NCBI GenBank assembly: GCA_029006755.1
Contig: JAQXGO010000091.1
Location: forward strand, 1 to 50,862
DNA: 50,862 bases
From: Clostridia bacterium
GTDB taxonomy: Bacteria > Bacillota > Clostridia > UMGS1883 > UMGS1540
Reading direction: 5' to 3'
Shown here: in pieces, positions 123 to 44,546 of the stretch
Position numbering within the stretch: position 1 is the stretch's first letter
How the letters are laid out: every line of letters begins with the position of its first letter
Notes under the pieces: model-generated
Databases searched by the model: none
Seen by the model: the letters and a program-made list of their open reading frames with translations, nothing else
Told to the model about the DNA's origin: nothing
Made by a program: the position numbers and the translations under genes

Positions 123-2375
123 CTATGCTTCTTCGTCCAGAAATTCTGCAATTTTTTCCAATGTTTTTACCAGTGTCTCCGTTGAACGCTCCGGCGTTTC
201 CATGGATGCAAAGGGTGCTGCAATAAACGCCTTTTGATTTTCCAGCGCCTTTTCCACGTACTCTGCCCGGATTGCATCCGGATGTACGCCTTCTCTTCGG
301 CTTCGGCGCAACATCTCAAAGCAAAGTTCCTCTTCATACCGGTACAGATACCGTACGTTTTCATAAATGTGCCCTCTGCAATACTGGTCAGATGCATTTT
401 CTTTCAGAGTGTTTTCAAATGCGGGATTCACCGGATGTACTTTTTCCAGCCGCCGGTAGGATTCTGCCAGGGAGAAATCCTCGCTTTGTCCAAGAAGATC
501 TGCAAAAAGATCCGTAAGCCGCAGGCAACGCTGACAAAAAGGCTCCGGGTCCGTCCCTTCCAGATATGCCCTTTCCACTTTCCGAAGTCCGTTCTGCTTA
601 TACCGCTTTACCACTGTGCGGACAATGTCGAAAAGATCCCGCCGTAAAAATGGATTTTGCGTATCTGCAAAGGGAATCAATCCGCGGACCACCGCCGCCG
701 CATCCTCGGCCCATGCCCTGCACTTTTCCGCTGTTTCCTCAATATACTGGGACTGTGGCTGAAACTTCAAATAAAAAAGTACGTCACCGCAAATGTCTTT
801 ATGGGCAAATATCCGAATCTTTTCCTCCGGATTCTCCAAATCCCAGGCCGCCATGGTTACAAAGGGCCAGAACTGTTTCCAGATACGGTGCATTTCCTCT
901 TTCTTATCTGCATACCGGTCTGCACAGAATTTCTCCAGTCTTTCCTCCACCGAAAGTTCCAGCGGGGACCAAGCGTTTGCTGCCATGTACTCCGTCATGA
1001 ATGTATCGCCGTGCGAATGCTCCGGCCAAAGAATGAAGCCACAGCATTTCTCATCCTCTGCCGCCATACGTAGCCGCGCTTCAATGGACGGGTAATGCCC
1101 CCGAATCTCTGTATCCGCCTGATACGCATGAAAAATACCGAAAATCCATGGAAATTTTCCCACCACATCCCATTTGGGGAACGTATTCTCCCTGAGGGAA
1201 TCCGAGGTATAATCGAGAAGAACCGTCCGGTGGGGATCGAAGGATTTCAAAAGCTGTGCTGCCTCTTCCGGCGCGTACTTCGCCCATAAATCCCAGCTAG
1301 CAATCAGGAGGGGCGCATTGGGATATTCGGCAGCAATCCGCTCCGCAATCCGATGGTATACATACCGTTTCATGCGGAAGTTTGCTTCCTTGTCATCAGA
1401 ATATGCTCTTTCGGCAAGGCCGATGGTATGAAAAAGCTCAGGCCTTCCAAACTCTCGGATATGGGTTTCGGTAAGATGAAAATAATTGTTTAGGTTTTCA
1501 TCCTCCCGCACGTCCCACACAAGTCCGCTTTGCTCGCTGTAGCCCCGTGTCGCCTGCGAAAGAAGCTTAGGCTTTTTGGCTTCCAGAAAAGATAAGGGAG
1601 TTCTAGAATACCAGTGAGTCATCGTACCGCAATCTTCCGGATGCATTAGGTCGAGAGAAAATGCATACTCCAGCACCTTCTTCCGTAGCTCGCCGCGATA
1701 CCGGAGGGGCCACGCCGTTGTACGGTCGTTATATCCGCCGGCATCACTGCGCTGTTTCCCCTCTTCCGGAGGATACTCCACCACATCGGGAAACGCTCTT
1801 TGAAAAAGGTCATCGTCCCCTATGCGGAGCATGAACATATTCAGCCGTTTTTTCATCAGCCAGTCCAGTTCCCTTTTCCAATCCTCTAAGCCCCAATGCT
1901 CTGCCTGAAAGCGGTGCAGGCTTCTATGTGCGAAGTACCGAGTGCCTCTGTAGAAAAACCGCGGGCTCTCTGAAACAGAGATGTTCTCCATGGGAACACT
2001 GTCGGCCTTCGGTATTATGTCCCCGTCCCAGAACCATCTGCACCCGCAGAAAAGTTCAAAATATCTATATACGGCATAGACGGTGGATCGGCCCCTCCCG
2101 CCGGCCAGAATCAGGAGCTTTCTGCCGCCGTCCATAACGGAGAAAATATCATAATCATCACTGCCCTGGCGGAGAGAAAAGCTTATTCTCCCTTCCAGAT
2201 AGATATCTGCCGCCAGCCGGTTGACCGCATCGCTTCCGATTACAACCACATCGTCTCCGTCATCCTCTGTTATAATTTCCAGTGTTATACCCGTAATTTC
2301 CGCATAGATTTCGCAAAAAATCTCTGCGGCACGCTGATATGCTGCATGACCGCCTGCCGGTCTCAAAATTTTCAT
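123..2375 (-). CDS. GH89-like (alpha-N-acetylglucosaminidase-type) glycosidase
   Basis: About 750 residues. The layout follows the NAGLU/GH89 family: an N-terminal alpha/beta domain (to about residue 125) ending in a glycine-rich stretch and WFWDGD, then a TIM-barrel opening with RYFAHRS and WKRELDWLMKKRLNMF, then an all-helical C-terminus. By position, candidate catalytic glutamates are E322 in IGLAER and E452 in ILWPEHSHGD, which correspond to the NEM and PEG glutamates of the family. No signal peptide is visible, so it probably acts in the cytoplasm on imported oligosaccharides. The start at 2375 is preferred over ATG 2384 because GGAG lies 9 nt upstream of it but directly abuts 2384. It lies 60 nt after the oxidoreductase gene with no terminator between, so it is probably the last gene of that operon. 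The substrate is inferred from fold only and may differ from GlcNAc. Confidence 0.7.
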   Translation of the reverse strand: MKILRPAGGHAAYQRAAEIFCEIYAEITGITLEIITEDDGDDVVVIGSDAVNRLAADIYLEGRISFSLRQGSDDYDIFSVMDGGRKLLILAGGRGRSTVYAVYRYFELFCGCRWFWDGDIIPKADSVPMENISVSESPRFFYRGTRYFAHRSLHRFQAEHWGLEDWKRELDWLMKKRLNMFMLRIGDDDLFQRAFPDVVEYPPEEGKQRSDAGGYNDRTTAWPLRYRGELRKKVLEYAFSLDLMHPEDCGTMTHWYSRTPLSFLEAKKPKLLSQATRGYSEQSGLVWDVREDENLNNYFHLTETHIREFGRPELFHTIGLAERAYSDDKEANFRMKRYVYHRIAERIAAEYPNAPLLIASWDLWAKYAPEEAAQLLKSFDPHRTVLLDYTSDSLRENTFPKWDVVGKFPWIFGIFHAYQADTEIRGHYPSIEARLRMAAEDEKCCGFILWPEHSHGDTFMTEYMAANAWSPLELSVEERLEKFCADRYADKKEEMHRIWKQFWPFVTMAAWDLENPEEKIRIFAHKDICGDVLFYLKFQPQSQYIEETAEKCRAWAEDAAAVVRGLIPFADTQNPFLRRDLFDIVRTVVKRYKQNGLRKVERAYLEGTDPEPFCQRCLRLTDLFADLLGQSEDFSLAESYRRLEKVHPVNPAFENTLKENASDQYCRGHIYENVRYLYRYEEELCFEMLRRSRREGVHPDAIRAEYVEKALENQKAFIAAPFASMETPERSTETLVKTLEKIAEFLDEEA

Positions 2376-2435
2376 CGCAAACATCTCCGTTTATGTTGAT
2401 TGTTCCTCGTCTTTTCCGATTTTCAATTGTAATTT

Positions 2436-3515
2436 TTACTTCAGCTGAACTGTCGCACCTGTCCGTATACTTTCATAGCAAGCATTCATGGCCTCTATTG
2501 TCTTTTTGTGCCACTTTAGATTGATCAGCGGTGTCTTTTTGTTTCTTATATTGTCAACAAATTCGTCAATAAGGCCAACCCATTCATCAAAATATGTGTA
2601 CTGAACCGTATAACGATCATTCGGGCATCCGTTATGGTATACGTTGGGCCCGAAGCAATCTGCCATCACACTTCCTTTTTCCCCGTTCAGTGTGATATTC
2701 ACTTCCATTCTCTTGGGAAAAACCTCCCAACCGGGGCCGGGTACGGGAATTCTCTCCTCCATCTTAGACCAAGAGGGGTCCAAAGAAAATACCGTGCCAT
2801 CCTTCATTCTGCCTATTACTGAAAGCATATCCTCTTCCTCAAGATCAGGGCGAATATTCGGTGCAACTTCTGCATAAATACTTTCAAATTCGCTTCCCGT
2901 CATATGTCTTATCATATCGAAAATATGAGGATGGTCACAAAGTGCACCACCTCTGAAACGGCTATCACCATCTTTGATCGGAACACGCTTGCCATAACTC
3001 TTTTCAGGAACTCCCTGCCATGGAAATGCCCATACGGGAGAAAGTGTAATATTGGTTGCATTAAAAGACTTGAGTTTGCCGATTTCACCGTTTTCAATAA
3101 GCTCCTTAAGTCTTACAATAACAGGGTTATAGTGCATTTCAAGCTCTATCTGGCAAACAAGTCCTGATTTTTCAACAAGCTCAATCATTTCGTCATATTC
3201 TTTCATATCAAAGGTGGGAATCTTCATAGAAAGCATATGAATACCTCTTTCTACGCAAAGCTTCATCTGACGAAGATGGTCACTATTTTCACTTGCCAAA
3301 ACAACTGCCTCGATTTCAGGATGTGCATTCAGCATCTCAAGTTCACTGTCATAGCAAGGAATTCCATCAACACTATTTAAAAAGATTTGCTTAACATCTT
3401 CATTTGCGGTTGAAACAGCAACCCAATCAAGTTTAGGATTTTCTTTTAAAACCTGATAATATTTTCTTGTATGACCGTGCGTCATACTCATCATAGCAAT
3501 TTTTATAGGCTTCAT
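2436..3515 (-). CDS. Gfo/Idh/MocA family NAD(P)-dependent oxidoreductase
   Basis: 359 residues, the usual length of the family. An N-terminal Rossmann region (1 to about 120) is followed by the beta-sheet substrate domain with DHPHIFDMIRHMTG, the equivalent of the usual GxHxxD(L/I)xxxxxG segment. The usual EKP motif after the Rossmann fold is replaced by MKIPTF. Such enzymes oxidise or reduce sugars, inositols or sugar acids. The start is close behind the stop of the upstream gene (2-nt gap), so the two are co-translated. Next to a glycosidase, a PfkB kinase and a SIS protein it probably processes a sugar released by this locus. The substrate cannot be read from sequence. Confidence 0.85.
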   Translation of the reverse strand: MKPIKIAMMSMTHGHTRKYYQVLKENPKLDWVAVSTANEDVKQIFLNSVDGIPCYDSELEMLNAHPEIEAVVLASENSDHLRQMKLCVERGIHMLSMKIPTFDMKEYDEMIELVEKSGLVCQIELEMHYNPVIVRLKELIENGEIGKLKSFNATNITLSPVWAFPWQGVPEKSYGKRVPIKDGDSRFRGGALCDHPHIFDMIRHMTGSEFESIYAEVAPNIRPDLEEEDMLSVIGRMKDGTVFSLDPSWSKMEERIPVPGPGWEVFPKRMEVNITLNGEKGSVMADCFGPNVYHNGCPNDRYTVQYTYFDEWVGLIDEFVDNIRNKKTPLINLKWHKKTIEAMNACYESIRTGATVQLK

Positions 3516-3517
3516 GA

Positions 3518-4210
3518 TTATAGTACCTCTCTTTCGCCACTTTTTGCAGATTTCTTCGCCATTTCAACAAGCTTGATAAGATTTTCATGTGCATGCGTCA
3601 TCTCATCGAAATTGTTTTTCTGCGCAACTGAAAATGCTGCTCTGATCATTGCAATCTCTTCAATCGAAAGACCGTAAAGTTCAAAATCAACATCCGTGTA
3701 TTTCTTATTTTCATTTCCAAAAACATAAATGGAATCCTGTTTTAGCTGGGCATCCACCACAATATCACATGCAATGCCGCGCTGCGAAATAATTTCGTGT
3801 TTGTCTTTTGCGATTTCGCCCTTTTTGAGGGTGGCGGAAATTTCGATCGTACATACAATACCATCTTCGGTTGTTGCAATGGCATTCAAAACATTGTCAT
3901 TTTCCATAACTGTTACTGATTTAATTTTTCTTTGTAATATGTACTGACAAATGTCAAATTCACGGTAAAGTTCTTCGTAAATATCCTTTTCTGCTTCAAC
4001 GATTCTTGCAACACGCATTACACTTATTCCAACAAGTGTTCCGTTGTTCACAATGTTTTTAAGTTCAACAAATCTTCTTTCGCTTCTATGGGAAAGTATC
4101 GGAATTTCTTTTCCGTCAATCATCACATATTTACTATTTTTTAATATAGCTTTGCTTTCTACAGAATATTTTTCAAGAAGAAAGTCAAGCTTTTCTTGCA
4201 ACTTATTCAT
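3518..4210 (-). CDS. Gfo/Idh C-terminal-domain-like protein without Rossmann domain
   Basis: 230 residues, no exact family recognised. Residues about 85-230 read like the C-terminal half of a Gfo/Idh/MocA oxidoreductase. EFDICQYIL resembles the HDIDLxRYL segment, TEDGIVCTIEIS resembles the FENGxxGTIExS strand, and the tail (HENLIKLVEMAKKSAKSGE) resembles the closing helix. No GxGxxG nucleotide-binding motif is present. It has a good AAAGGAG ribosome site and sits between a full-length Gfo/Idh gene and a SIS-domain gene, so it is a normal expressed operon member and not debris. It could be a partner subunit of the neighbouring oxidoreductase. That function is inference. Confidence 0.55.
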   Translation of the reverse strand: MNKLQEKLDFLLEKYSVESKAILKNSKYVMIDGKEIPILSHRSERRFVELKNIVNNGTLVGISVMRVARIVEAEKDIYEELYREFDICQYILQRKIKSVTVMENDNVLNAIATTEDGIVCTIEISATLKKGEIAKDKHEIISQRGIACDIVVDAQLKQDSIYVFGNENKKYTDVDFELYGLSIEEIAMIRAAFSVAQKNNFDEMTHAHENLIKLVEMAKKSAKSGEREVL

Positions 4211-4225
4211 TTTGATTTACTCCTT

Positions 4226-4975
4226 TTAAAGCATTTTGATTCTTGGTTTATATTTTTCAAGATATGCGGCATTCTTCTCGTCTCCACCGGGTGTATTGGC
4301 ACTTGACCATACAGGAGGAGTGATCCCTCTGTCGATACACTGCTTTACACATTCAATTTCCAAAAGGTGCGCAATATAAAAATCAATAATATTGGATACC
4401 GGCGCAATAGGTGTATCAAGTCCGGGGACATTCACCACCGCATCTCCTACGGGATTAAAGTCCTCAATACATACATCCGCATAGTCAAAAAGATTTGTTT
4501 TGTTGGGATGACGGATAAAGTGATCCTCGGGCATTTCTGTCTGCCACGCTTCGCTTGATACAGCAATAATTTTAACACCGTTCTTCTTTGCTTCCATAGC
4601 AGCGTCAATGGTTGCCGGATTAATACCGATGTTATGGAAAATAATAAGAACATCATCTTTCTTCAAGTCATAATATTTCATTATTGCACTACCATAATTG
4701 ACAGTTCTTTCAAGCTCAAGATATTTAAGCGCTTGATTGAATACTGAAAGCCCCGTTTCCATAATGGGGTTGATGCAGGAAAGACCACCTGCTCTGAAAA
4801 ACATTTCACCCATACAAAGCGTTGTATGTCCACCGCCTCCGTAGACATTGATCAAACGGTCATTCGCAATTGCATCGCACATAAGCTCTGCAGCTTTTTG
4901 GATGTTTTCGCTCTGCGTGTTATTTACTTGTTTGAAATTTTCCATTAGGTTGTCAAAATAACCAAAATCATTCAT
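4226..4975 (-). CDS. SIS-domain protein (UPF0309-like sugar isomerase fold)
   Basis: 249 residues. The early NVYGGGGHTTLCMGEMFFRAGG is the phosphosugar-binding loop region of a SIS domain. Next come a central LIIFHNIGINPATIDAA segment and GVKIIAVSSEAW, the standard second half of the fold. SIS proteins isomerise or bind phosphosugars. The start overlaps the end of the upstream kinase gene by 8 nt, indicating translational coupling. With a PfkB kinase just upstream, it may act on the sugar phosphate that enzyme makes, or sense it. No HTH is fused, so it is not an RpiR-type regulator. Confidence 0.75.
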   Translation of the reverse strand: MNDFGYFDNLMENFKQVNNTQSENIQKAAELMCDAIANDRLINVYGGGGHTTLCMGEMFFRAGGLSCINPIMETGLSVFNQALKYLELERTVNYGSAIMKYYDLKKDDVLIIFHNIGINPATIDAAMEAKKNGVKIIAVSSEAWQTEMPEDHFIRHPNKTNLFDYADVCIEDFNPVGDAVVNVPGLDTPIAPVSNIIDFYIAHLLEIECVKQCIDRGITPPVWSSANTPGGDEKNAAYLEKYKPRIKML

Positions 4976-5813
4976 TTTTAAGCTTCCTTTCTATTTCATT
5001 TCGATTGGGCATTGCGTTTAATACATATTTTCTGCCTACGCTTATGCCCGAAGCAGTCACAGCGTATGCACACGCTTCTTTCAAATTCATCCCTTCTGCA
5101 ATACAAACTGCAAGAGTTCCGTTAAAGGTATCACCTGCGCCCGTTGTATCAACTGCCTTCACTGAAATCCCCGAAACACTTTCATTGCCGTTAATGAGGC
5201 AACCTTTTTTTCCAAGCGTTGTAATGCAGTTTTTAAAACGCCTCCTGTCTATTGCCTGCATTTCCTGCTCATTCGGTGTTACCATAAACACTTTTTCTGC
5301 CATTTTATCAGGGATTTCTCTCATCGGTGCAGGATTTAAAATCACTTTTACACCGTATTGATCGGCAATTTCTACCGCTTTTTCATTAACGGCAGATGGG
5401 ACTTCCTGCTGAAGAAGAAGAATATCACTCTTTGAAATTTCTTCTTCAAAGGAAATCACATCATCCATTTCAAGCTCTGCGCTCTTATACTCTGTCACAC
5501 GGTTTTCTCCGTTTTTATCGGTCAGGATAAAAGCAAAAGGGGTAGCTTTGCCCTTTTTAATTTTAAAGTGCGCATCAATTTCGTTTTCCTTTGCCACCAC
5601 TATAGATTTTTCACCATTTGCATCATCACCGATTGCACACAGGAACGAAACCTCAGCCCCCATTTTTTTTGCTGCAATCGCTTGATTAATGCCTTTTCCT
5701 CCGATTTCTTCAAAAACCGAGTCTGCAACAAGTGTTTCACCGTTTTCGTGAAAATGGTCTGCATACATAAAGAAAGAATTTCCGCATATTCCTATAACTG
5801 AAATCTTTGGCAT
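4968..5813 (-). CDS. PfkB-family sugar kinase, ribokinase-like
   Basis: About 281 residues from the chosen start MPKISVIG. PfkB signature features are visible: an early GGKGINQAIAAKKMGAEV (signature 1, substrate side) and a late VDTTGAGDTFNGTLAV (signature 2, with the GAGD anion hole and catalytic Asp). NPAP in the middle is typical of ribokinases. Start 5813 was chosen because GAAGGGAG lies just upstream and the residues before it look unlike the family N-terminus. It phosphorylates a sugar or nucleoside with ATP in the cytoplasm. The substrate is probably the monosaccharide handled by this locus. Confidence 0.85.
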   Translation of the reverse strand: MPKISVIGICGNSFFMYADHFHENGETLVADSVFEEIGGKGINQAIAAKKMGAEVSFLCAIGDDANGEKSIVVAKENEIDAHFKIKKGKATPFAFILTDKNGENRVTEYKSAELEMDDVISFEEEISKSDILLLQQEVPSAVNEKAVEIADQYGVKVILNPAPMREIPDKMAEKVFMVTPNEQEMQAIDRRRFKNCITTLGKKGCLINGNESVSGISVKAVDTTGAGDTFNGTLAVCIAEGMNLKEACAYAVTASGISVGRKYVLNAMPNRNEIERKLKNE

Positions 5814-5826
5814 TACAACACTCCCT

Positions 5827-6486
5827 TCAACCGAATAATTCAGATGAATTGTACGCATTCTGCCCTTGTTCACTTACTACTTCTTTTCTGCAATTTAATA
5901 GCCATTTAAACGGCTCCGAATTCTTATATACATATGTCCATGCATTATGTGCATATTCATCAAGAATGGTAAGCTTCGCATGACCTCCAAATTTGTTTAT
6001 TCTTTCCACCATTTTTACACTCTCATCGCATAATACAGTGGGGTCTTTTTTTCCGTGAAACGCCCATATGTTTAAATCTTTTATTCTTGGTGCGTTCCAG
6101 TACATTCCGCCTCCGCAGATAGGGATTGCACCTGCATAAAGCTGTGGATCTGACATCAGCATCTGCCATACTGCATATCCGCCCATACTCGCCCCAACCA
6201 GATATAACCTTGATTGATCAGTATTTTTATGCTCGTAGACGAAACGTGCAAAGTGGCGAATACTTTCAAACATATCAAACCAGGTATTTTTGTCACATAA
6301 AGGAGCGTATATGATTGCCTTCTTCAACAAAATATGATTTTCTTCAAAAAAAGGATTGGCGGAAACTCTGTCTAAGTTGTCACCCCGTGTCCCTGCTCCG
6401 TGCATAAATATAACTGTTGGATAGTCCTGTTTCTCATTAAAATCAGACGGAGTGGAAACTATATATTGAACACCTTCAAAATTCAT
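5827..6486 (-). CDS. Alpha/beta-hydrolase esterase/peptidase-like protein
   Basis: 219 residues from MNFEGVQY, chosen because AAGGAG lies 9 nt upstream. The protein has the alpha/beta-hydrolase pattern seen in the predicted-peptidase / feruloyl-esterase-like group: oxyanion region MHGAGTRGDN near residue 28, nucleophile elbow GASMGG, acid in HGKKDPTV and histidine in YAHNAW. No secretion signal is seen. It is the first gene of the minus-strand sugar operon and could remove ester groups from imported sugars. The natural substrate is unknown. Confidence 0.75.
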   Translation of the reverse strand: MNFEGVQYIVSTPSDFNEKQDYPTVIFMHGAGTRGDNLDRVSANPFFEENHILLKKAIIYAPLCDKNTWFDMFESIRHFARFVYEHKNTDQSRLYLVGASMGGYAVWQMLMSDPQLYAGAIPICGGGMYWNAPRIKDLNIWAFHGKKDPTVLCDESVKMVERINKFGGHAKLTILDEYAHNAWTYVYKNSEPFKWLLNCRKEVVSEQGQNAYNSSELFG

Positions 6487-6664
6487 CTTATATCTCTCCT
6501 TCAAATGCTTTACTCTTCCCATATATTTTTTGATAAGTACTTTAGACAAAGTCCTTTAAAGTAATCACGGAAAGAATGTGTGAAATCGCCATTGGTTGAT
6601 TCCTGGTATAATGTAATGGACTCATCTAACCGTCATTTACAAATATACCTCCACTTTTATATTG

Positions 6665-40035: not shown

Positions 40036-42000
40036 TTACATTGCATTTACTGCGTCATAGAACAGGCCCACAATCTTAGCAACCTGTGCTCTTGTTACAG
40101 GAGCACCAGGAGCAAATGTGCCATCGCCCATGCCATTCAGAATACCAACTTTTGTCAGTTCAGAAACTGCTTCCTTAGCATAATCGCTAATGCTTGCAGC
40201 ATCTGTGAATGTGATTTCTTCGCCCTGTGTCATTTTCTCGAATAAGCCAATTTCTTTGCCCATGTTGTAGAATACTGTAGCAACTTCTTCACGTGTGATG
40301 TCTCTATCAGCATCAAATTTCTCACCAAGGAACTTCAATGCGCCGAGCTTTTCTGCTGCTGCAATTTCTGCTGCTGCCCAGTGCTTTGCATCTGTTCCCA
40401 CAACATCCTTAGCATCGCCTTCTACCTTCAGAACACGAGAAGCTAATGCAACGAGCTGTGCAATGGTTGTCTTGCCTTCCGGAGCAAAGGAATCATCGGA
40501 CATACCCTTAATTACGCCGGCCTTAGTAAGCTTATCGATGGAGTCGGCCGCCCATGCATATGCAACCTTGTCAACATCATTAAACTTTTCGATACCCTTA
40601 TCGGAAGCTTCACCGGCAATGTCGCCTTTAGTCGGATCTTCTACAACAGGCTTATTATCTTCCTTCGGATCTTCCTTCGGATCTTCTTTCTTGTCGTCTT
40701 CAACAGGCTTATCTGTCAGGTTTGCACCAGTAGAAATAGACGGAGCGCTGGTAGAAGCTTTCTTAATTTCAACTGCATCGAATGCTTTTGCATCGCCAAC
40801 ATATGCAGGATGACCTTCAACTGTGTATGTTGCAGTTACTTTCACATAACCGAACTTACCGATATTCTCTTTGTCAAATTTATAAGTAGCTGTTGTTGCA
40901 CCTTCAATTGCTTGTTCATTTGTGCCTTCAGCATCATCTGCTACATACCACTGATATGCAAATGTGTATTCGCCAGCCTTGTAATCGTTCACTTCAACGA
41001 CAGCTTCTACGTCTTTGCCAGCAGTAATCTTTTTAATCTCTTCGCCTTCCGGAATTACAGGTACAGGCTTGTAGTCTTCTGCCGGATATACAAAGATTGC
41101 ACTCTCATCAGCTAAAGCTACAGCGCTTGCTGCAACGTTCGGCTCAACACTTCTGTCTGCCTTTGCTAATACATCAAAGGAAATCTTCTTTTCAACCAAA
41201 TCTTTAGTAATCGGAAGCTCTTTGGTTGTTGCACCTTCGATCACAGCACCGTCTGCATACCAAGTGATAACAGATACGTCACCTGTTGTCTTGTCTAATA
41301 CTTCAGGATCTGTATTACCGTTATTAAATGCATAACCTGCTACCAGTTTGCCATTGGGAACAGCATAGGTTGCCTCGTCAGCAATTGTCAATGTCAGGTC
41401 AGATGCTACAGGTGCAACAGGCATTGCGGAAATCTTAATTGTGCCTGTTTTATCTGTGACGGTTGCATTTGCTTTTTGTGCATCATCGCCGCCTTCTACT
41501 GCCTGATAAATGAAGTTGGTTACTGCAAGACCAGTTGCGCCAACTTCGAGTGCCTTAAATTTAAAGCTGAAGAGTGCTTCGGTTTCCAACGGAGCCGGAA
41601 CATCCGTTACACCATTCTGAAAATCTGCAACTGCAGCGTAGTTAATGGAACCTGCGCTCCAACTACGTCCACCCTGTACAAATGTGTTTGCTTCATCTAC
41701 AACGTACTTTTCATTTGTTGTGACTACAAGTTCAGATGCCTTAGTAACGGCTGTTGTGCCATCCTTCTTTACCGGCTGAATTTTTGCTGCATCATATGCA
41801 AAGGTAATTTCAGCTGCACGCATTGTTGTTTCTGTGGTACCAACGTGTACCTCAACCTCGAACACATCGTCCTTGTAGGCATCCTTAGAGAGCTTCAGCT
41901 CTACAGTTACGTTCGCAGGAACTGCAGCATATACTGAAATGCTTACAACAGAAAGAAGCATTACAAGTGCTGCAAGCACCGCTATTAATTTCTTTGTCAT
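40036..42000 (-). CDS. SLH-anchored surface protein with N-terminal cohesin-like domain
   Basis: 654 residues from MTKKLIAVLAA (GGAGG 7 nt upstream). Signal peptide about 1-26. Residues about 30-192 read like a cohesin-type beta-sandwich: a first strand VTVELKLSKDAYKDDVFEVE, then AAEITFAYDAAKIQPV, and a late LFSFKFKAL. Then two Ig-like stretches (about 200-300, 310-415), a charged linker with DPKEDPKED, and three S-layer homology domains (about 473-525, 530-590, 597-654). SLH domains bind secondary cell-wall polymers. The whole protein would display the cohesin-like domain on the cell surface. The next gene upstream ends in a dockerin. The cohesin call is from pattern alone. Confidence 0.75.
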   Translation of the reverse strand: MTKKLIAVLAALVMLLSVVSISVYAAVPANVTVELKLSKDAYKDDVFEVEVHVGTTETTMRAAEITFAYDAAKIQPVKKDGTTAVTKASELVVTTNEKYVVDEANTFVQGGRSWSAGSINYAAVADFQNGVTDVPAPLETEALFSFKFKALEVGATGLAVTNFIYQAVEGGDDAQKANATVTDKTGTIKISAMPVAPVASDLTLTIADEATYAVPNGKLVAGYAFNNGNTDPEVLDKTTGDVSVITWYADGAVIEGATTKELPITKDLVEKKISFDVLAKADRSVEPNVAASAVALADESAIFVYPAEDYKPVPVIPEGEEIKKITAGKDVEAVVEVNDYKAGEYTFAYQWYVADDAEGTNEQAIEGATTATYKFDKENIGKFGYVKVTATYTVEGHPAYVGDAKAFDAVEIKKASTSAPSISTGANLTDKPVEDDKKEDPKEDPKEDNKPVVEDPTKGDIAGEASDKGIEKFNDVDKVAYAWAADSIDKLTKAGVIKGMSDDSFAPEGKTTIAQLVALASRVLKVEGDAKDVVGTDAKHWAAAEIAAAEKLGALKFLGEKFDADRDITREEVATVFYNMGKEIGLFEKMTQGEEITFTDAASISDYAKEAVSELTKVGILNGMGDGTFAPGAPVTRAQVAKIVGLFYDAVNAM

Positions 42001-42031
42001 GCTAAAAACCTCCATTTTTTTTATCTTCCAA

Positions 42032-42066
42032 CGAGGGTGATAATGTGACAAGCAATATCACCCTCG
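42032..42066 (-). other. Hairpin between dockerin and SLH genes
   Basis: CGAGGGTGATA (42032-42042) pairs perfectly with TATCACCCTCG (42056-42066). No T-tract follows on the minus strand, so this is more likely a processing or stability hairpin (or leaky attenuator) than a full terminator between the two co-directional genes. Confidence 0.65.
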
Positions 42067-42079
42067 AATGGTACAAACA

Positions 42080-44011
42080 TTATTTGCTTGCGTTCCAGTT
42101 AGATCCTAATGTAGAATAGTCAAGTACGTTTACTATGCCATCTCCATTCAGGTCTGCTGCTACATTGTATTTTGCATTGCCGGGAACTGCATTCCATGCA
42201 CTTCCCAATGCAGAAATATCCAGAATGTTAACTGTATCATTAGCGTCTATGTCACCTGCACGCATGGCGGGCATTGCCAATGCAGAACCATCTCTCATTG
42301 TAACGCCTTCTTTGGTCACTGTCACTTCTACAGTTTCTGTGAAGTAACCGGGTCTTGCAATTTCAATGATATAATCGCCTAATGCAATTTTCTTCGTGCT
42401 CTTAAATGCAACGCCATTTTCTGCAACCTGTGCAAAAGCATCTATCTCTTCGCTTTCTTTATAAAGCTTCACTGTAGCCACATTTGCTGCCTTAGCAAGA
42501 GAACTAATGAATCCTGCATTTACTTCTACATCAACGCCGGCTAAGCCAATCTTATTCACAACAAAATCAAAGGTTTTTACAGAATCTGCGTAGCCATCTT
42601 TTTTGAATGTAGCGGTTGCACTATATGTTGCGGTATCTTCTTCCGCATCCACAGCCGGACGAGCCAACTCAACCTTACCTACAGCTGAGGCCCCTTCCAT
42701 GCTCGGGCTGGTCCATGCCCAAACAATTGAAACGCCGTCTTCTCCCCATGTATCTTTCAAATCAACAACTGCTTTACCATACTGTGCATCTTTCTCATCC
42801 GCATTTTCCGGGTAACCTTCAGCCGGTGCATCATAGTAACCGGCTTCGCCACCATACACAACATCAAAGACGGCCGCATCTGCTGCAATCTTTGTAGGTG
42901 CAGTCAGCTTAAAGCTCTTCACTTCTGTTGCCGTATAGTATTCATCCGGCTGAATTGTAATCGTAAAGGTTCTTTCTTCAACTGCATTGCCAAAGAGATA
43001 TGCAAACTTGTAGTTATTCCCTTCTACCAATGCAGCAGTTGCGGTTTCTTCAACCGGTGTTTCGCCATCCATGTACGAAATCTTAATTGCATTGGGAAGC
43101 GCTATATCCGTTGCCCAATCCGCATAAGCACCTTCAGCATTAATGGAGAACTCAACTTCACCATCAGCAACCTGATCTGCAATTGTAACTGTACCGGATG
43201 CCTTCATGCTTGCGGAGAAAGCTTCGCCAAGCATTTTACCGTTTGCATAAGTTGCTTTCATTTCAACATCAACGGAAGAAATGGTTTCTATTCCGCTAAC
43301 TACAGTCCATGCAATTGTCGCTGTCTTGTTTTCTGCATCTACTACAAACTTGTCAGCTGTAAGTTCTACCTGAGATGCACCTTTATTGATGATAATCTTA
43401 TCAATATCACTTGTGTAATCTGCAGGAATTTCAGGGAATGCATTGGTTGCATCTTTTACAAGATCAAAGACTAAATCTTCGCCTTTGTACCATGTGCCTT
43501 GCAGCTTAAGGTGCGGACTGGCCGGAGCAGCCTCAACAGGTCTATACTTTTGCACTTCTGTTACATCAGTACCACCGGCGAAAACAGTAATAAACTGACC
43601 GCCCTTTGCATCTACCTTCGGCTTGAAGTTAAAAGTAAAGGTACCAACGCCTTCATTAAAAACAATGTTGCCATCTTCTTGACCTACTTGGTCAATGTAA
43701 ACAACACGATCTTGTAATGTTTTGCCTTCAACTTCGCTGTTCACAAAGTCTGCTAAAGCAGTCTCAGATTCGCCTTCAGCCTGTGTCCCACGAACAGCCA
43801 AAATTGTAACATTCAAATCCTCAACTACTGCATCTGCGCCCGCAGTAATTGTACCTGTAACCGTCATTACTTCGGTTTCATCATTGTAGTCTACACTTGT
43901 CAGTGCGACAGTATTTGCACTGCCCTCTCCAAGTGCGACCATGGGAAGCATAGACAGTGCCAATACAGAAGCAACAACTATCTTCCACACTTTCTTCTTT
44001 CCTTTCATCAT
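42080..44011 (-). CDS. Secreted dockerin-containing protein
   Basis: 643 residues. Signal peptide about 1-28. The bulk is several beta-sandwich-like stretches without a recognised catalytic domain. The last about 59 residues form a type-I dockerin: two Ca-binding loops, DIDANDTVNILD and DLNGDGIVNVLD, each followed by the helix with LGSAWNA / LGSNWNA. Dockerins bind cohesins, and a cohesin-like SLH protein is encoded directly downstream. No carbohydrate-active domain is seen, so it may be structural. Start at ATGATG with AAAGGGG upstream; long structured leader. Confidence 0.85.
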   Translation of the reverse strand: MMKGKKKVWKIVVASVLALSMLPMVALGEGSANTVALTSVDYNDETEVMTVTGTITAGADAVVEDLNVTILAVRGTQAEGESETALADFVNSEVEGKTLQDRVVYIDQVGQEDGNIVFNEGVGTFTFNFKPKVDAKGGQFITVFAGGTDVTEVQKYRPVEAAPASPHLKLQGTWYKGEDLVFDLVKDATNAFPEIPADYTSDIDKIIINKGASQVELTADKFVVDAENKTATIAWTVVSGIETISSVDVEMKATYANGKMLGEAFSASMKASGTVTIADQVADGEVEFSINAEGAYADWATDIALPNAIKISYMDGETPVEETATAALVEGNNYKFAYLFGNAVEERTFTITIQPDEYYTATEVKSFKLTAPTKIAADAAVFDVVYGGEAGYYDAPAEGYPENADEKDAQYGKAVVDLKDTWGEDGVSIVWAWTSPSMEGASAVGKVELARPAVDAEEDTATYSATATFKKDGYADSVKTFDFVVNKIGLAGVDVEVNAGFISSLAKAANVATVKLYKESEEIDAFAQVAENGVAFKSTKKIALGDYIIEIARPGYFTETVEVTVTKEGVTMRDGSALAMPAMRAGDIDANDTVNILDISALGSAWNAVPGNAKYNVAADLNGDGIVNVLDYSTLGSNWNASK

Positions 44012-44188: not shown

Positions 44189-44217
44189 ATTATAACGCCA
44201 TATAGGGAGTTTTGCAA
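44189..44217 (-). promoter_or_regulatory. Promoter of the dockerin gene
   Basis: Minus strand TTGCAA (44217-44212) and TATAAT (44194-44189), spacer 17 nt. The leader would be about 170 nt. Confidence 0.65.
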
Positions 44218-44517: not shown

Positions 44518-44546
44518 TTGACAATTTTTCGCGAACAATATATAAT
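44518..44546 (+). promoter_or_regulatory. Promoter of the ywlG-type gene
   Basis: TTGACA (44518-44523) and TATAAT (44541-44546), both consensus, spacer 17 nt. Confidence 0.85.

Follow-up and report, generated by a model that had tools for sequence, protein, structure and literature searches.

A probable one-to-one cohesin-dockerin pair at the cell surface of an uncultured Clostridia bacterium

In the genome of an uncultured Clostridia bacterium (GenBank assembly GCA_029006755.1, 1.78 Mb in 118 contigs), two adjacent genes on the minus strand of contig JAQXGO010000091.1 encode a secreted, non-enzymatic dockerin protein (gene 1, 42080..44011, 643 amino acids) and a secreted cohesin-SLH protein (gene 2, 40036..42000, 654 amino acids), as assigned from the list of open reading frames and composition, for gene 1 also from Pfam and NCBIfam. 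The window, i.e. the whole stretch of 50,862 nucleotides that was analysed, is one entire contig. The two proteins probably represent a dedicated, non-enzymatic and likely abundant two-part surface system, which uses the connector of cellulosomes as a structural joint. The sole dockerin and the sole cohesin that Pfam detects in the genome reside in neighbouring genes of the same strand, and this makes a one-to-one pair at the cell surface probable. Both reading frames are intact and lie head to tail with a spacing of 79 nucleotides; each starts with a Sec-type signal peptide, recognized by eye, and is preceded by a ribosome-binding site (AAGGAAAGGGG ahead of the ATG at 44011, GGAGG ahead of the ATG at 42000). 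Pfam and NCBIfam returned no enzyme domain in either protein, in accordance with the first-pass annotation, which had described the dockerin protein as lacking one. Genome-wide counts are based on profile searches over the contigs of whole genomes; the order was sampled with its 28 available genomes (G000 being that of the window), and those relatives for which a name was obtained are metagenome-assembled Clostridia, mainly from rabbit and ruminant gut.

From its N-terminus, the product of gene 1 comprises the signal peptide, an Ig-like N-domain, an Ig-like body, an X-module and the dockerin. The dockerin (42107..42259, minus strand) was matched above the cut-off by Pfam Dockerin_1 (PF00404; 33.9 bits, E 7e-8), and a search of the whole genome for further dockerins, as proposed in the first-pass annotation, returned this match alone. 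It consists of two duplicated EF-hand loops with F-helices, also apparent from the profile, the loops being DIDANDTVNILD and DLNGDGIVNVLD with their calcium positions occupied, and the recognition helices, NILDISALGSAWN and NVLDYSTLGSNWN, are near-identical. The X-module (42260..42556, minus strand), a beta sandwich of the PEGA/CarboxypepD_reg type with a weak match to PEGA, is located directly ahead of the dockerin, and is related to the scaffoldin X-dockerins of PDB 4wi0, 4u3s, 2b59 and 3kcp according to phmmer and profile alignments. When both modules were searched together with a profile across relatives, the best values were obtained for 4wi0_B (E 4e-20) and 4u3s_B (E 6e-20), and the alignments spanning both modules in the four structures ranged from E 4e-20 to 5e-13. 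The two-loop dockerin predicted earlier at the end of gene 1 was hence found in Pfam, but its designation as type I is incomplete, because the preceding X-module places it with the type II anchoring kind.

The product of gene 2 combines a signal peptide, a cohesin, an Ig-like stalk and three SLH repeats in this order, such that an SLH triplet and a cohesin occur within one secreted protein, as in anchoring scaffoldins. The N-terminal, type II-like cohesin domain (41419..41928, minus strand) was assigned by Pfam, a family profile and a fold model. Single-sequence searches of Pfam, NCBIfam and PDB miss or under-score it, and a profile of relatives is needed: Pfam Cohesin scored 18.8 bits (E 0.0016) at 41431-41904, below the cut-off of 24.1 bits, as the sole match in the genome, and the family profile, built from eight of the partners of gene 1 (the window and seven relatives), reached solved type II cohesins with a best E of 1.5e-14. 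Modelled with AlphaFold2, the window domain had a mean predicted local distance difference test score (pLDDT) of 66.7 and a predicted template modelling score (pTM) of 0.64, with confidence below 50 at residues 62-85 and 99-107, which bears on two type II hallmarks, the crowning helix and the beta-flaps. With this model, Foldseek matches 1 to 38 in the PDB were all cohesins (best template modelling score 0.67, 4u3s_A). The domain thus has the jelly-roll fold of cohesins by profile and by Foldseek; its assignment as a carbohydrate-binding module (CBM) or another jelly roll was rejected, as the top fold matches were exclusively cohesins. The fold check which the first-pass annotation had named as able to overturn its cohesin-like reading accordingly came out in favour of it. 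The three SLH repeats (40069..40578, minus strand), likewise foreseen there, form the wall anchor and were recognized as three stretches by Pfam PF00395 (97.6 bits) and by the solved SLH domain of Sap (PDB 6bt4, 3pyw). Between cohesin and SLH repeats lie Ig-like spacer modules and an acidic, lysine-rich linker (40579..41418, minus strand), the distal part of which is shared with a fusion protein discussed below. The two family profiles, one for each gene, match chains A and B of 4u3s and 4wi0, so that both halves point to partners of the same solved complexes; these matches show family membership and not binding.

The pair is widespread in the order. The X-dockerin gene was found in 15 of the 28 genomes (G000, G004, G007-G013, G016, G018, G019, G021, G023 and G025), and low-scoring matches in G002, G003 and G017 belong to different frames of greater length. 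In each of the 15 genomes a cohesin-like gene follows next on the same strand, with support that varies by genome. The partners in G010 (E 1.9e-54), G021 (1.4e-30) and G013 (3.2e-6) were detected by a cohesin profile built without them, and that of the first pair in G019 by an enlarged cohesin profile (4.2e-7); the pair in G023 is split across two contig ends. Beyond the order, this arrangement was encountered with profiles built without the genomes concerned: in G034 a gene for an N-domain and a dockerin is followed by two cohesin-Ig-SLH genes, in G176 an X-dockerin gene precedes a cohesin gene, and in G078 the pair has the reversed gene order. No such juxtaposition was found beside the homologues in G131 and G175. 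As a separate observation, the dockerin gene in locus 1712-6487 of G034 (L121), which also holds the two consecutive anchor genes, is a minimal version without X-module, whose two recognition helices are letter-for-letter identical (DIEDYNLVVNNFN); here one client faces two anchors.

In one genome of the same family, G002, the parts of gene 1 and gene 2 are combined in a single protein of 903 amino acids. Residues 1-447 align to residues 1-489 of the gene 1 protein (30% identity, E 2e-23), the alignment ending where the X-module starts, and residues 570-897 align to residues 324-646 of the gene 2 protein, i.e. stalk and SLH repeats (41% identity, E 1e-48). Both X-dockerin and cohesin are missing from the fusion, and by the alignments a covalent link has taken the place of the clip in this organism. 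The fusion provides the strongest computational hint that the proteins of gene 1 and gene 2 normally work joined.

A further line of evidence concerns the symmetry of the dockerin. At 13 recognition residues, the two halves are 73% identical within a protein, compared with 35-41% between genomes, and at loop positions 10-11 the respective values are 78% and 11%; in a permutation test, none of 20,000 shuffled pairings reached the observed value (p 5e-5). The recognition helices thus have the two-fold symmetry in sequence that is expected for a dual binding mode. The codons at identical residues of the two halves match in 54% of cases, compared with 42% expected by chance (3 of 8 in the window). 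Near-random synonymous codons together with likeness at the protein level argue that the halves are old copies, the symmetry of which is kept by selection. This codon divergence largely rejects recent gene conversion as the main cause, with some contribution from it perhaps in G018, G012 and G016, the genomes in which the majority of codons agree. Distances between dockerins correlate with those between cohesins (r 0.70; partial coefficient 0.54 once the N-domain is taken into account), with a permutation that removes phylogeny incompletely. The purpose of dockerin symmetry is debated, one hypothesis being that it arose incidentally through duplication and is functionally irrelevant (PMC8063739). 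The two-part system, which had originally been read from gene order, is carried further by adjacency kept within and outside the order, by the fusion in G002, and by the selected symmetry of the dockerin.

Both proteins are acidic (mature isoelectric points of ≈ 4.2 for gene 1 and ≈ 4.5 for gene 2), rich in alanine, valine and threonine, and free of cysteine. Their codon adaptation (0.72 and 0.76, respectively) is at the level of ribosomal genes, the mean of the window being 0.62 with a standard deviation of 0.05. Composition and codon bias are compatible with surface-layer (S-layer) proteins. The pair is not a cellulosome, as scaffoldin and dockerin enzymes are absent from the genome: a multi-cohesin scaffoldin was not found, with one cohesin in the genome and many in genomes of family f54 by the same search, and the one dockerin sits on a protein without an enzyme domain. 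A search for GH48 gave no match across the 28 genomes of the order, but the control genomes were likewise silent, so that it lacked a positive control.

A mechanism can be envisaged in which the gene 2 protein serves as a secreted single-cohesin anchor, held at the wall by its SLH repeats and presenting the cohesin on an Ig-like stalk. The gene 1 protein would be its dedicated client, a secreted, non-enzymatic Ig-like chain ending in the X-module and a two-fold symmetric dockerin, which would clip to the cohesin of the neighbour in a calcium-dependent manner, two orientations probably being possible. This would yield a one-to-one surface structure, with SLH anchors holding the cohesin stalks and X-dockerin proteins forming the outer part; binding of dockerin to cohesin, calcium dependence, abundance and a coat-like role are what we infer for the pair. 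Beyond this, a more speculative proposal, tentative at best, is that of a two-layer non-enzymatic coat in uncultured gut Clostridia, in which a private clip with the symmetric, drifting code of each species would act as a self-specific joint, and dual-mode binding would be selected in a strict one-to-one structure.

Several alternatives have to be weighed. The cohesin of gene 2 might act as a socket open to dockerin proteins in general, be they enzymes or proteins of neighbouring bacteria, with the gene 1 protein as one client or none; SLH anchors serve many clients in other bacteria (PMC11557425), and further dockerins occur on large proteins of relatives (seven matches in G009, six in G016). 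However, the profile search found no second dockerin in the window genome, the readable extra dockerins of relatives carry unrelated recognition helices of the RYLAGW or QYLAKW types, and the adjacency of the two genes is kept one to one, which leaves the general socket an unlikely explanation. It is more improbable still that both are ordinary abundant surface-layer proteins, each fixed independently on the wall, with an adjacency that reflects co-regulation and not binding. In gene 1 Pfam recognized neither SLH nor any other wall anchor, the protein keeps an X-dockerin, the known role of which is cohesin binding, and the G002 fusion supplies SLH repeats exactly where the X-dockerin is lost, even though acidic, cysteine-free Ig-like chains rich in alanine, valine and threonine, their high codon adaptation and more than 20 matches to SLH proteins in the genome would suit independent surface proteins well.

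The pair could also be regarded as the decaying remnant of an ancestral cellulosome, its parts being cellulosomal in type and cellulosomal enzymes not having been found (for GH48 with the limit given above). Decay is very hard to reconcile with calcium positions and dockerin symmetry that persist as the recognition code changes and synonymous sites are near chance, with the high codon adaptation of both genes, and with the maintenance of the pair throughout the order. Some findings weigh against the dedicated two-part surface system as well. The fusion is known from one metagenome-assembled genome, the partners in G008, G012 and G025 were first called cohesin-like by reading and alignment and not by an independent profile match, and the second pair in G019 is cohesin-like by eye only. 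In family f3, the cohesin partners had no SLH domain in Pfam in the copies scanned (L046, L048, L076) and have Big_4 repeats, as noted for those of genus g6, and a common C-terminal region, so that SLH display of the cohesin partner is not universal among relatives. The extra dockerins of G009 and G016 belong here too, as do the moderate confidence of the window cohesin model and the fact that codon bias is a mere proxy for abundance; physical binding between the two proteins is presumed from sequence.

The closest parallel is the type II anchoring of Clostridium thermocellum (PDB 2b59, 5k39, 5g5d, 5m0y), with an SLH anchor bearing a type II-like cohesin and a client bearing X-module and dockerin, as here. 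In this organism the X-dockerins of CipA/ScaA and CipB dock on cohesin-SLH anchoring scaffoldins, and CipB resembles gene 1 in its modules of unknown function and its X-dockerin end (PMC5141474). The main task of the client in C. thermocellum, however, is to attach a multi-enzyme scaffoldin to the wall, whereas the window genome has one cohesin and one dockerin in adjacent genes and no scaffoldin. Furthermore, the dockerin halves of the window are near-identical in sequence, in contrast to the type II dockerin of C. thermocellum CipB, which is symmetric in structure only; sequence symmetry has been noted in type I dockerins and in the type II dockerin of B. cellulosolvens (PMC8063739). The ScaB cohesin/ScaA X-dockerin pair of Acetivibrio cellulolyticus (PDB 4u3s, 4wi0, 3l8q) gave the best profile matches for both halves and was among the best cohesin fold matches, but it belongs to a true cellulosome with an adaptor scaffoldin. 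Cohesins and dockerins outside cellulosomes have been described from many organisms, e.g. Archaeoglobus fulgidus and ANME archaea, with unknown function, and specific binding has been demonstrated for archaeal versions (PMC9012536, citing Peer et al. 2009). Such archaeal and bacterial proteins share with the pair the presence of cohesin and dockerin without cellulose breakdown; in ANME archaea, however, multi-cohesin scaffoldin-like chains have ABC-binding-protein clients, unlike the monogamous, SLH-anchored pair with X-module that occurs order-wide in gut Clostridia. S-layer proteins (Sap, PDB 3pyw, 6bt4) have in common with the pair the SLH triplet, the acidic and cysteine-free composition and the probable abundance, and differ in that the outer component would here be held by cohesin and dockerin, not by an SLH domain of its own. 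In function, the pair probably corresponds to the step by which a type II cellulosome is attached to the cell surface. Its components are familiar, namely type II anchoring and an X-dockerin protein resembling CipB; new within the literature searched is a stripped-down, private SLH pair of one-to-one type that occurs across an order of gut Clostridia, has a counterpart in a fusion and shows a measurable symmetry under selection.

Symmetry that is kept through a near-complete turnover of recognition residues, in pairs of a single cohesin and a single dockerin, argues for selection on symmetry without a crowded multi-enzyme scaffold, and makes these pairs simple natural cases for testing dockerin symmetry. 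The pair further points to a use of cohesin-dockerin joints in building the cell surface of gut bacteria that have no cellulosome, and naturally diverged pairs offer a series for orthogonal protein assembly.

The remaining parts of gene 1 are Ig-like. The N-terminal domain (43529..43924, minus strand; TILAVR...YIDQ...GGTD), delimited by alignment with relatives and by an AlphaFold2 model, is common to all order relatives of gene 1 and was modelled with confidence as an Ig-like fold (pLDDT 85.3, pTM 0.81). It had no fold match in the PDB at E ≤ 0.001, and the window copy had no Pfam match and no sequence relative in the PDB. It is the conserved cargo, being the only part besides the X-dockerin in gene 1 relatives of 270-300 amino acids. 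The body (42557..43528, minus strand), probably made up of further Ig-like modules by comparison with relatives, is common to gene 1 of G004 and the G002 fusion, and is missing in the 270-300 residue relatives. The window genome encodes a second secreted protein with a gene 1-type N-terminal Ig-like domain (contig C81, locus L130, 2239-3816; 525 amino acids), in which no dockerin and no SLH were seen, and further secreted proteins of relatives bear the domain as well (L131, L132, L126, L128, L129).

Other dockerins in related genomes deserve mention on their own. For the RYLAGW- and QYLAKW-type dockerins on large proteins of some relatives (L170-L191), no matching cohesin was found, which makes them orphan dockerins. 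In G030, a protein of 562 amino acids (L009, 109-1794, minus frame) can be read as a pair of cohesin-like domains and, after them, an X-dockerin, and a further cohesin-like open reading frame lies nearby. Similar frames of 556-562 amino acids, the C-terminus of which matches a dockerin, are present in G045, G062, G251 and G317; proteins of this type look like a separate, non-cellulosomal cohesin-dockerin system.

With respect to expression, the unit of gene 1 and gene 2 has a candidate sigma-70 promoter (TTGCAA-17-TATAAT, 10 of 12 positions; 44189..44217, minus strand), which would give a 5' leader of ≈ 170 nucleotides and is weak in that the number of such sites is not above that in shuffled sequences. 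The spacer between the genes contains a hairpin (42032..42066, minus strand; z -3.8) with an 11-bp stem, CGAGGGTGATA/TATCACCCTCG, and without a T-run. In this organism it could adjust how much of each protein is made relative to the other; a conserved hairpin as ratio-setter was rejected, because relatives lack it. No Rfam element was found in the leader or in the spacer. A perfect sigma-70 consensus (TTGACA-17-TATAAT, 12 of 12 positions) is present at 44518-44546 on the plus strand, just upstream of the divergent DUF436 gene.

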